A program made the position numbers and the translations under genes. Below are positions 218-33,300 of a DNA stretch of 64,000 nt, in pieces. Origin of the DNA: Capitulum mitella (lineage: Eukaryota > Arthropoda > Thecostraca > Pollicipedomorpha > Pollicipedidae); the NCBI GenBank assembly GCA_030062745.1, contig CP099846.1, forward strand, positions 9,173,432 to 9,237,431. Direction: 5' to 3'. The notes beneath the pieces were generated by a model. That model was not told where the DNA came from. It saw only the letters and a program-made list of their open reading frames with translations, and ran no database searches. The first letter of the stretch is position 1; each line of letters opens with the position of its first letter.

Positions 218-359
218 CGCCTTCTTGGTCCATCTCCCGACGCGTGAGGTTCAGCCTGTTCTGCAGCTCCTCCCGCCGGATCGTCAGCTGCTTGTTGTCC
301 TTCTCCAGCTGGCGTCGCGCCGTCTCGGCCGCTTCCAGGCCACACCGGGTCTCATACAG
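218..359 (-). CDS. CROCC: Rootletin exon 20 (last exon in window)
   Basis: The acceptor is CCTCAGATGCAG|CTGTAT and the donor is GAAGGCG|gtgagc. The exon has 47 codons plus one base. The peptide contains LYETRCGLEAAETARRQLEK and ends LTRREMDQEG. It aligns with the vertebrate segment LFEVQRQLAQLEARREQLE. The frame continues into an exon beyond base 1. Its acceptor is copied in the 47-bp array that follows. Confidence 0.82.
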
Positions 360-3300
360 CTGCATCTGAGGCAACAGCGTCAGACGTCAGTCCCTGGACC
401 GTACAGCTGCATCTGATGCACCAGCGTCAGACGTCAGTCCCTAGACCCTACAGCTGCATCTGAGGCACCAGCGTCAGACATCAGTCCCTAGACCGTACAG
501 CTGCATCTGAGGCGCCAGCGTCAGACGCCAGTCCCTGGACTGTACAGCTGCATCTGAGGCGCCAGCGTCAGACTTCAGTCCCTAGACCGTACAGCTGCAT
601 CTGAGGCGCCAGCGTCAGACGTCAGTCCCTAGACTGTACAGCTGCATCTGAGGCGCCAGCGTCAGACGTCAGTCCCTGGAGTGTACAGCTGTATCTGAGG
701 CACCAGTGTCACACGTCAGTCCCTGGGCTGCTGGTAGCTGACGGGCTGCCTGTGACCGAGCTTATCCGTCGAAGGCTCGTGGTTCATCTGCTTCAGCAGA
801 GCACCGTCAACGCACGTCGTTTTGTCCTCATGATATTTGCCTTTGTCCGGTCTTACCGGACCCGTTTTTCTGTCCCAAATGAGGAAATTCAGATGACGTA
901 CAGTGCGCAAATGCACGGCATACGTGTGGGTCATATCCAAGTTAACGATAGAATGCGCGAGCATATTACAGAAACTGAAGAACTGCTGGTGTTGGAGTGT
1001 CTTACCGAGTGATGTCACAACCCAACCAACCCGACCCAACCCGTGTTACCACGTGACACCGATCGAATGGGCCTGTTAAAAAGTCTTGTGGGAGGGGACA
1101 GCAAGACTAGCCAGAAAATTACAGATGTATGTGCTTCGGGAGCGAGGAGGGGAATACGGACCTCCTTAGGACACAATGAGAAGGGCACGTGACCCAACAG
1201 GCATTTCAGAGTTTCCACGTTTTAGTGCACCACATGAGGCAAACGGATACTACAATCTAGCGCCAACGAGAAATTTAAATAGATATGAACCAAAACTAGA
1301 CTAAATATGGATGATATCCTCAACTACCACAGGGTTACAAACATCTCGTGGGTTGGCGTTGCCATGGCGACGCTCCAGCCAGCGCTTAGGTCGGGAGGCA
1401 GCGGAGGAGCAGTGCCCTGTTTGACGGTAGGGCACACCTTTAGAGTGCTCTCCAGGCACGAACAGTGCCGGGCTCGAGAACAGCTTGTATCAGCCTTAGT
1501 GATGACATCTGCTACTGACATCGAGCCGTGCGCAGCCAAATTTTTCTGCGCGCCCACGAGGGAGAAGGCATCGTGCTCGAGTCTGTCCTTCAGGCTTCCG
1601 CTCGGAGTTATACAGAAAAGCATGCTTAGAGCACATCACGTAGGCAACTGCAAAATACCTGTGGTATCTGCGTTATGAAAATTTTGAGTGTCTCATGTAT
1701 GCACGAAGAGCCACGTCCCTGATCGGAAAAACGCGTTAAAACGAGCCAGCTGACAGGTGCGCGTGCATTTCTGGACTCAGGCGCGCATGCCTCTTTCGTC
1801 TTCCCTACTTTTCCAGCTTTGCGAAAAACCGTCTTTGTGCTTCGCTTTTTACGACCATGCCCATGTTTCCGAATTTCCAGGATTCACGCCAGCTCTGGGC
1901 CAACACCCTGAACCGTCAGCCGAGGTCAAGCGTGGTATTAATGACACGGAATTACCGCGTTCCAGCTCCCGACTATTCATTCAGAGAAGCTTGCGTTTCC
2001 TTCCGCATCATTCTTACTGCGCATGATCCCACATGCTTGGCCACATTTTCGCAATCATTGCTGTCTGTCAGCAGTGTTTCTGCTGTCTGCTTCATCTTCT
2101 CTTCAACGTGAAGCCATAGTTGTTGAAATCGTCGAAAATTAAAACATGCAAGGTTTGATGCCAACAATAGTTACCATGTTCTGCAGTTATTACTTCGTCA
2201 CAATCGCGATCAGAAAATGTGATATGTAACACGTAAGCAGGTACAGGGCGGGCGAATCCAACGCTGGGTGGCTTTACGGGCTGCCAGTGAGCTTACGATG
2301 AGATCCAGCAATGGGTCCCGGTCATACCTCTGCGTGTTGTTTTTCGGCCCGGAGTGCGGCCAGCACCTCCCGCAGACTGGCGTGTTCCTTCTGCAGGGCC
2401 GAGTACCGCGCCTGTCCGAACAGGGGCCGTCAGTTGCACAGCCGCCAGTCACAGGACCGGCCTGCAGTCACAGCACTGGCTGTCAGTTACACAGTCGTTA
2501 GTTACAAGACCGTCCGTCGATCACGTGACCGTCAGTCGCAGAACCGGCCATCAGTCATAAGGCGCCGGTCAAAGGACTGACCGCCAGTCACAGGGCCGGT
2601 CGTCAGTCACGGGACCGGCCGTCTGTCACATAGCCGTCAGTCATAGGACCGGCCACCAGTCACAGCGCCGGCCGTCAATCACACAGCCGCCAGTCACAGG
2701 ACCGGCCGCCAGTCACACAGCCGCCAGTCGCAGGACTGGCCGTCAGTCCCATAGCCGTCAGTCACACAGCCGTCAGCAACGGGGCCGGCCGTCAGTCACA
2801 GGACCGGCCGTCGATCACAGGACTGACCGTCAGTCACATAGTCGTCAGTCACAGGACCGGCCGCCAGTCACAGGGACAGCCGCTAGTCACAGGACTGGCT
2901 GTCAGTCACATAGCCGCCAGTCAAAGAAACAGTCGCCAGTCACACAGCCGTCCGCCACAAGACCGACGGCAAGTCACAGGACCGACCGTCAGTCACATGA
3001 CTGGCCGTCAATCACATAGCCACCAGGAGCCAGGACTCAGCTCGTCACATTCAGACGTCCGACCAGCCGCTCAGAGAGCAGCGTGGCGGCGGTACCGACA
3101 GCCGGCCACAGTACCCGTCCCTCCGCCTCTGCCGTCTGCCCACCCCTGCGACACCCTGACTCCCCCCCCTCCGGGGAGCGGCGCCTGCTCACCTGCAGGT
3201 CGCCGGAGGCCCGGGCCAGGGTCTCGCGCTCACTGGCCGTCCTGTTCATGTCAGCCTTGGCGCGCTCGTAGTCGAGTCTGGTGCGCGACAGCTCCTCCTG

Positions 3301-30300: not shown

Positions 30301-33300
30301 CCGGGACCGTCACTGACCGGGTCAGCGGCGACCGGCCGGCCAGGGTCACCGCCTGGCGACCCCAGGTCGCGAGACGGGGCCGGCTCGTATCCAGACAGCG
30401 GCAGGTCGCCCGGCGTCTGCATCAACCGGTCCAGCTGGAACAGGGGACCTGGTGAGACGGGTCCTGTCCAGCTGAAACGCTGGTAACCTGGTGAAACGCA
30501 CATTGTCCAGCTGAAACACTGATGACCTGGTGAAACGCACCCTGTCCAGCTGAAACAGGGGACCTGGTGAGACGGCTCCTGTCCAGCTGAAACAGGGGAC
30601 CTGGTGAAACGCACATTGTCCAGCTGAAACACTGATGACCTGGTGAAACGCACCCTGTCCAGCTGAAACAGCGGACCTGGTGAGACGGGTCCTATCCAGC
30701 TGGGACACTGGTGACCTGGTGAGACGGGTCCTGTCCAGCTGAAACACTGGTGACCTGGTGAAACGCACCCTGTCCAGCTGAAACAGGGGACCTGGTGAGA
30801 TGGGTCCTATCCAGCTGGGACACTGGTGACCTGGTGAGATGGGTCCTGTCTAGCTGAAACACTGGTGACCTGGTGAAACGCACCCTGTCCAGCTGAAACA
30901 GGGGACCTGGTGAGACCAGCGCGAACGAAACGACCAGTTTCAAGAAGACAGTGTCAAGAGATTGGAAACTGCAACAGAATCTGGGCTAAATGGCAGTATT
31001 TAGTAAGTCTGTTGTCGATGTGTGCTGTTTTTTAGTGCTCTAAATAACATAGCGTGGCCAGATTAATCCCCATGTCTCGCTCCATGCCAGGTCAGATGAC
31101 ATGTTTCTCAACGTTCTTCTCAACTTCAGCCATACTGCTGTCCGAGTATGGCCAAAGCAAGCTGTCGAATCCACAGCCTAGGACCAGGCCGCGGTCCAGT
31201 TCTCGGGCCGATCTGTTCCAAACACGCAGCGTTATGTTAACAGACGCCAAACTAGCCCCACGCATCGTGCCCACCACCCTAAACGAGTCGCCGACCACAG
31301 CCACAAATCACGCGCAAAGCGCATCAACAGAGACATTCATTACGCGTACTACGCTCAGAGGACCAACACTGCCAGGCCCACACAGGCGTCAGTGCGCCGG
31401 CCTGTGTCACGACGGCCGCACACACAGCTGACACCGGACAGGCCTGCCACCGCGGCTCGCCGGCCCCGAGCCCCTCACGCGCGACACCGCACCGACCGCG
31501 GACACACAGCTCGGCCGACGGGGAGGCGTGCAATTCACGGCGTCTCTGGTGGACACCGACGGCCTCATGAAGCTGACTCCCGACTTGCACGGCAACGAGC
31601 GCAGCAGATCGAGAAGCTGCCGGCGCCATACTAAGAAAATGTCGAGAGCTTTTACCGGAGAACACAACACTGTTTGTAATACCCGGCAAGTCCATGCAAC
31701 AACTTAGCTGATACACGCATACACCGTGCACGCTAGCCTAATCGAATTGCGCTAATTCGACTACGAGACATCATCTGATACCACAGCGTCCCATCGCGCA
31801 AGCCCAGGGACGTCCGGGAACAGGCATGCACGCACGAGCATCACGAGCGTGCGTGTCGCCCGCTGCGGGCCCCTCGGCGGCCGCGGCCCACGTGTGTGCA
31901 GAGCTGCGTCGGCCCGGCTCGTCATTGTGTCGCAGTTAGCGCCGAGTAATCGCATCGACCACGCCGGTCCGGCCCGGCGGTCACCGGCCCGGTGTCGGCG
32001 GCCCGGCCAGCTCGTCTGGTCGGTGCCGGCCGGCCGCGCGCTGCTGACGGGCGGGCCCCCATGAGACGCCCGGATCACCGCGAAACGGCAGAGGACGGCA
32101 GACGCGGCAGAGGACGGGCGTCTGCGCAGGCGCCGACAGAAACGCCGACGGACACGGTCAGACAAGCTCAACTGTTCGACTCCCCTCAGGTACGGTATCA
32201 GCCACGACCCGTTCACCGCTACCGAAGCATTTCCGTCACACGAACCGTCACCGTGACAGCCACACTAGACAGGCCGTCACCGTGACGGAGCCCAGCAGAC
32301 AGAGCGGAGCTGCCGGCCCGGCGGTGCCGGCGGCTGCGGCGGCCGGCCACTCGCCGCCGTCCGCCGTGTATCGGTCCGGAGCGACGACCACACCGGCCCG
32401 GCGGAGGCCCGCCCCGGGGGACGGCCGCCGCCCACCGAATCAGCCGACAAATTGACGAGGCGACGGATGGCCCCCAGGGGCCTGCTGCCGCCGCCCGGGC
32501 GCCACACGCGACGCCGCCCCGTGGCACGCGCCGCGGACGGCTGTCCCTGACAGAGTTCTCACGGGACGCCTGGGTTCCAGGCGGCACGCGCCTGGAACCC
32601 ATTTATGGGACCCAACACGCATTTCAACGCAGCCTTTTGACAAGGGCCACTGTTGCCTATGAGCTAAATCTGTTCTCCAAAACGAAACGAGCAGAGGTGA
32701 TGAAATGGCAACAGAGACATTCAGTCACACAATCATCCGGCCCATGGCATGAGAAACGAATCAATCAAATAACTGGTGGACAAATGTCCTACTGGGCCCC
32801 CCGGTCTGTTTCCTATCTGTTGATGAAACGCTCCAAACTATCTTTACTCAGTCCACTGTGCCGGGTATGTATTAACGCAGTCGTGAAAACATTTATGGTG
32901 ACCTGAACAGAACCAGAGCGATACGAGTAAGACCCATCACGGCTCAGAGTTCAGAGCCCTGGCATCACTCAGTGGGCTTGTGCTGGATGTATAAGAGGAG
33001 ATCGTCACATGTCCAACGAAAATAAGGAAGACACGCAAGCAGGATAGGAAAGTTGATAAAGACACAAACACGTTCTAATTCTAAGCCAAGTATCCGCGTA
33101 TTTCGTGCTCTGTATCAGACACATGCGTGTTCAGGCGTTCGTTCGCTCCAGCTGTAATATCAGGCGGTGAGGCACCTGCGCAAAAAGTCGACCAGCCGGC
33201 CCGGGATAGTCCCCCGAACCCCACACCGGGAGCACGGCCAGTCGGACTCGGGTCCGCCTCCAGTCCGCGGCGCTCGCCCGTACCCCTACGCCCGACTAAG

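Follow-up and report, generated by a model that had tools for sequence, protein, structure and literature searches.

The 64,000-nt window analysed here, C8:9173432-9237431 of the 477-Mb Capitulum mitella genome (16 contigs), carries on its minus strand a rootletin-like gene in which eight minisatellites cross exon edges. We modelled 17 exons in this gene; 14 exons are backed by open frames and splice consensus, which place one of the donors at 12989. The gene is identified as a rootletin (CROCC) by homologous coiled-coil exons that follow the rootletin order. In a tblastn search with a human CROCC query that does not come from a database record, the best E value among the matches listed was 3.6e-12, the N-terminal exons were found in order and the later coiled-coil exons were weakly placed, and for two of the rootletin exon frames Pfam returned coiled-coil matches, all below threshold. 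All positions below are window positions, and the exons and arrays of this gene are read on the minus strand.

The exons that meet arrays are placed by different kinds of evidence. Among the matches listed, tblastn with the CROCC query backs the exons at 3193-3387 (acceptor edge 3387), 6293-6423 (acceptor edge 6423) and 15417-15680 (donor edge 15417; the match covers most of the exon and the donor was set by consensus), as well as the whole of exon 17713-17878, which has an array at both edges. The acceptor edge 365 (exon 218-365) and the donor edge 11195 (exon 11195-11376) are predicted from open frame and splice consensus only. Acceptor edge 30434 was accepted from the translation, compared by eye with the CROCC query, together with its place in the exon order; the exon starts with LDRLMQTPGDLP, and 30300 stands as a placeholder for its other end.

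Tandem Repeats Finder (TRF) returned 66 rows for the window. Five of the crossing arrays lie at acceptors (edges 365, 3387, 6423, 17878 and 30434), three at donors (11195, 15417 and 17713), and every unit combines intron and exon bases of its own junction. At acceptor 365, the array 355-724 has a 47-bp unit in 7.9 copies by TRF, read as eight copies of GCCTCAG|ATGCAGCTGTA with a few changes. The cluster at 3346-3850 holds four copies of the exon start CTGGATGACCAG, with (ACCTG)n stretches between them. A 64-bp unit, CTGACCTTCAG|GTGA, is present in two TRF copies at 6400-6527, and the same acceptor unit recurs as a detached array at 7238-7398, in the intron 0.8-1 kb upstream. The two remaining acceptor arrays are 17861-18102, with three copies of an 81-bp unit, and 30429-30916, with 39/115-bp units containing CCTGTTTCAG|CTGGAC. 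Among the donor arrays, 11100-11214 repeats about 22 bp with GCTGGTCAG|GTCAGT, 17533-17721 repeats 21 bp with GGAGCAG|GTGAGGGG, and 14886-15430 is built of 21/25-bp units, with 23 distal copies of GCCGACCAG|GTCAGTACGG that carry changes.

The last of these arrays lies within open reading frames (ORFs) that are open in all three minus-strand frames, and its period is a 46-bp pair; likewise, most of the array 28009-28449, with a period of 37 bp, falls where ORFs run through each of the three frames of the plus strand. Because neither period is a multiple of three, a stop-free unit leaves every frame open. A further upstream exon, 33352-33463, matched the N-terminus of the CROCC query in tblastn, and an (ACCTG)13 array, 33471-33535, ends about 8 bp before its acceptor at 33463, near the junction without crossing it. 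The (ACCTG)n pentamer thus stands directly upstream of two rootletin acceptors, 3387 and 33463, and reads as a repeated branch-point-like CTGAC.

An earlier note on this DNA had proposed that at least eight arrays in the gene repeat the splice site of their own exon. All eight are present. Its count of seven affected exons also holds, exon 17713-17878 having two arrays, but it counted twenty exons in all, and its exon numbers could not be mapped onto the 17 modelled here. Its statement that the arrays all differ in sequence is almost correct, the exception being the pentamer beside two acceptors. Its claim of independent origins stands for the six arrays that we used as queries, namely all except those at 17713 and 3387: in a whole-genome search that skips simple repeats and very common words, 23 of 23 matches fell at the arrays' own loci, and these six were therefore born separately. 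Introner elements are dispersed families of intronic sequence with their own splice signals. They resemble the rootletin arrays in that intronic sequence carries its own splice signals, but introners occur as near-identical copies in many introns, whereas the queried rootletin units are locus-specific. A dispersed element or introner is thereby ruled out for the six queried arrays.

Within the rootletin gene, the crossings exceed what random birth of arrays would give. When 20 arrays, merged by hand from the TRF output, were dropped at random as single seed units, with approximate ends for the exons at 10853-10976 and 30300, a mean of 0.8 crossings was obtained against the eight observed; with seeds limited to 500 bp or less from exons the mean rose to 1.7, and none of 4000 random-seed draws reached eight. 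Placing full-length arrays with no exon constraint gave a mean of 3.6 crossings (P 0.012). A test by coverage showed a small junction excess: 7 of 28 junction words were copied (at least 20 of 25 bases) in the adjoining intron, compared with 12-13% of 3825 intron words and 19% of 1529 near-exon words. The coverage test counts an intron word inside an array once for every copy, which explains why its result differs from that of the seeding test. Arrays cover 16.3% of the gene's 31.2 kb, and the gene itself was picked for its arrays.

As an unselected comparison we used myosin genes, collecting 86 matches to myosin-head exons. Two were left out, C10:17082960 (five stops) and C10:17081730, and 5 of the remaining 84 had no usable region, which left 79 usable exons with 158 junctions and about 235 kb of surrounding sequence. 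Some stretches overlap (e.g., L016/L017/L018/L021 and L023/L037), so that a few arrays are counted more than once in the myosin array coverage, 8-mer triple, k-mer and acceptor-motif counts given here, and the muscle myosin copies are mutually related. Array coverage in this sample was 4.4%. After five junctions had been dropped for weak site scores or for lying too close to the end of a region, 3 of 153 myosin junctions were copied in the adjoining intron. This does not exceed the result for words displaced 30-500 bp into the intron, of which 2 to 6 were copied out of 131-153 (e.g., 2/153 and 6/152). TRF arrays crossed 3 of the 158 junctions, where collapsed seeds, at a rate of 1.0% per site, predict about 1.6. 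The two tests share two of their three positives, and together they flag four junctions. Myosin junctions are thus neither avoided nor clearly favoured by arrays. A side observation from this sample is that one myosin-head exon (profile about 377-436) occurs in repeated copies at C16:5450234-5453643, C15:16425920-16428593 and C14:17197973-17199021, like the alternative exons of arthropod muscle myosin.

These data raise the question of whether the rootletin pattern is chance combined with selective notice, the earlier note having singled out the gene that stands out most in a window rich in repeats. This explanation overlaps with the one we favour below and denies any seeding bias. The heavy array coverage of the gene, the 3.6 crossings expected under unconstrained full-length placement and the lack of enrichment in the myosin sample all speak for it, but it leaves aside a genome-wide excess of donor-motif arrays that is independent of the rootletin gene, and we consider it a possibility that deserves some weight without being the likely answer.

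That excess concerns the donor motif CAGGTRAG, which occurs in rows of three (gaps of 4-30) 830 times genome-wide, versus 87 for the reversed motif. Single sites differ about 1.5-fold (33,212 versus 22,494), and the excess over the reversed control is 6.5-fold per site by matches. Counted by eye as distinct arrays among the matches listed, at least 17 donor arrays on C1 and C2 (83.7 Mb) stand against 2 for the reversed motif (22 genome-wide), roughly a 3-fold excess per site when scaled from C1 and C2 to the genome, and against 7 for CAGGTRGA, a 2.4-fold ratio unnormalised for single sites. A permutation that breaks the donor and retains CAGGT gave 146 triples versus 188 for its reverse, again unnormalised for single sites. 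Acceptors behaved differently from donors: genome-wide, a strict T-rich acceptor pattern showed no excess (4 versus 14 for its reverse), and a looser one no clear excess (2134 versus 1511, unnormalised for single sites). Random 8-mers form triples at 0.19% of sites in the myosin sample, 1.08% in the rootletin gene and 0.08% in the rest of the window. Location in genes is ruled out as the cause of the donor excess, since the myosin rate lies below the 0.39% of the reversed donor control.

The proposal that splice sites seed arrays, also made in the earlier note, gains support from the donor motif and finds no clear support at acceptors; for junctions in general, the myosin genes do not support it.

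Composition of the array units points to a common core. In strand-free counts over 109 arrays, drawn from the myosin sample and the window, CTGACC/GGTCAG was the 6-mer with the strongest enrichment (18 of 109 versus 3.3 expected). Its overlapping neighbours CCTGAC, AGGTCA, ACCTGA and CAGGTC were also enriched (CAGGTC 12 versus 3.0), and CAGGTG (9 versus 3.2) and GTCAGT (9 versus 2.3) were raised. In the same 109 units TTGCAG (0 versus 2.3), CTGCAG (0 versus 2.9), CAGGTA (0 versus 1.8) and GTGAGT (2 versus 1.8) were not raised. Upstream of myosin acceptors, at positions -60 to -15, we counted 22 CTGAC versus 7.1 expected and 21 TGACC versus 3.1; CTGAC is found in 19 of 79 of these regions, and C-rich words are raised too. 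This enrichment 15-60 bp upstream of acceptors suggests CTGAC/TGACC as the putative branch-point motif of the genome. Genome-wide, CTGACC forms 14,784 triples versus 3,942 for the reversed word (singles 425,806 versus 308,090), which amounts by matches to an excess of about 2.7-fold for each site. CTGACC/GGTCAG is a very frequent minisatellite core: among the matches listed, 27 clusters of its triples were counted by eye in the first 4.2 Mb of C1. On the sense strand, gene array units contain CTGAC 15 times and GTCAG 6 times, with a background of 155 versus 121; for the 6-mers the counts are 7 CTGACC versus 5 GGTCAG. The sense-strand bias of CTGAC is suggestive only. Two readings of the core remain: either arrays derive from splice signals, or the core is intrinsically repeat-prone and resembles them by chance.

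The first of these leads to an account in which donor, branch-point and acceptor signals are birth hot spots of minisatellites through a process linked to splicing or transcription, such as R-loops or template switching, so that thousands of arrays would be amplified splice signals. It would explain the donor excess by matches and by distinct arrays, the low triple rate of random 8-mers in myosin genes, with gene location alone being insufficient, the double role of CTGACC as branch-point-like motif and top array core, and the surplus of sense CTGAC. However, myosin junctions are not enriched, the acceptor patterns lack a clear enrichment, the margin over CAGGTRGA amounts to only 17 versus 7 arrays, unnormalised, and the sense bias is weak when set against the background and the 6-mer counts. 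Moreover, the CTGACC excess may be intrinsic to the sequence, and the arrays examined are not known to lie outside genes. On this evidence, we regard such hot spots as rather unlikely.

The explanation that we favour, as moderately probable, invokes ordinary tandem duplication together with tolerance at exon edges, in a genome that abounds in minisatellites and shows a modest seeding bias at donors. Tandem duplications would start by slippage or microhomology-driven copying in this GC-rich, minisatellite-rich genome and then grow into arrays. A duplication inside an exon would usually be harmful; one that straddles an exon edge would be nearly neutral, as the exon is preserved by the copy on its own side and all further copies become intron. 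Only at its edges would an exon therefore give arrays room to persist and expand, and an array growing there would necessarily have the splice site in its unit. We infer that the distal sites are mostly unused. The modest extra bias at donors probably arises because donor-like and branch-point-like sequence (CAGGT, GTCAG/CTGAC) coincides with the sequence that most readily forms minisatellites in this genome. In favour of this explanation are the locus-specific units of the six queried arrays, the myosin junctions, which are copied as often as offset intron positions, the array-richness of the rootletin gene compared with the myosin sample, the surplus of donor triples, and the enrichment of CTGACC both in array units and upstream of acceptors.

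Several observations weigh against tolerance as the whole explanation. Eight crossings, where 0.8-1.7 are expected, exceed what tolerance alone would give, unless the gene is an outlier that selective inspection brought to light, and uneven seeding is evident from the donor excess. Around myosin junctions, 5 of the 19 non-crossing array edges within 500 bp lie 30 bp or less from the junction, a possible sign that arrays cluster at the edges of exons. The splice core diverged, over five arrays, in 12 of 338 cells and the other non-CpG positions in 87 of 815, in a comparison whose cells are not independent, whose copies were picked by similarity and whose unit edges vary in structure; this lower divergence leans towards constraint, as selection would give.

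Selection could maintain the arrays if redundant splice sites made splicing robust or provided variable isoforms. Besides the lower divergence of the splice core, the retention of splice sites fits such a role at several arrays: the distal donor GT is kept in 21 of 23 copies at 14886-15430 and 6 of 8 at 17533-17721, and, with the true copy included, the acceptor AG is kept in 8 of 8 copies at 365 and 6 of 6 at 30434. The opening of all three minus-strand frames across 14886-15430 would also suit it. At acceptor 17878, AG is kept in 3 of 3 copies. Other arrays retain less, with GT in 2 of 4 distal copies at 11100-11214 (edge 11195), AG in 4 of 6 at 6423 and in 3 of 4 at 3387; young or homogenised arrays would retain their splice sites regardless, and several units (47, 64 and 85 bp) are not multiples of three. 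We therefore hold selection to be quite improbable. A broader version, in which the splice signals CTGACC and CAG|GTNAG are general birth sites accounting for a large share of arrays and the distal copies are selected as spare sites, appears unlikely as well, if slightly less so.

Tandem repeats that take in splice sites have precedents: the earlier note knew of no described element that behaves in this way, but human IFI6, fission yeast and potato provide examples. In the human 6-16/IFI6 gene, downstream repeat units of a minisatellite are reportedly used as splice donors (Turri et al. 1995, NAR 23:1854). The rootletin arrays are of the same type, tandem arrays at an exon-intron boundary with the splice site within the repeat unit, and share with 6-16/IFI6 that the units carry the gene's splice donor. 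They differ in that the human case is one array in one gene with its downstream donors reported as used, whereas rootletin has eight, acceptors included, known from sequence. The 6-16/IFI6 minisatellite is described as supplying several splice donors (PMC4526556). Intron gain by tandem duplication covers the Rogers model, ATP2A1, 24-bp AGGT repeats in fission yeast and potato RdRp; in potato and fission yeast, tandem duplications that span or contain splice sites are described (PMC4974935). There, too, sequence with splice signals is tandemly duplicated, in some cases over an intron-exon boundary and in yeast in several copies; a new intron arises in those cases, whereas the existing rootletin introns seem to be lengthened. 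The variable number tandem repeat in TERT intron 6, with a 38-bp unit, is an intronic minisatellite linked to TERT splicing, and thus likewise tied to the splicing of its own gene (PMC11830802); its unit is not known to contain the junction. Thus, single precedents for junction minisatellites are known. Among the papers listed in searches of an open-licence library we found no report of eight junction arrays in one gene, and no genome-wide report of splice-junction minisatellites or of a donor-array excess.

If tandem duplication is indeed tolerated at exon edges, introns have a neutral way to grow longer and to acquire spare splice sites, which would open a path towards alternative splicing as well as the gain or sliding of introns. 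Should arrays truly be seeded by donor and branch-point sequences, the sequence of splicing signals would be linked to genome instability.

Elsewhere in the window, the frames 43185-44522 and 57032-58555 gave no Pfam match at E 1; the latter, on the minus strand, is a 507-aa stop-free frame that looks like a single-exon gene.

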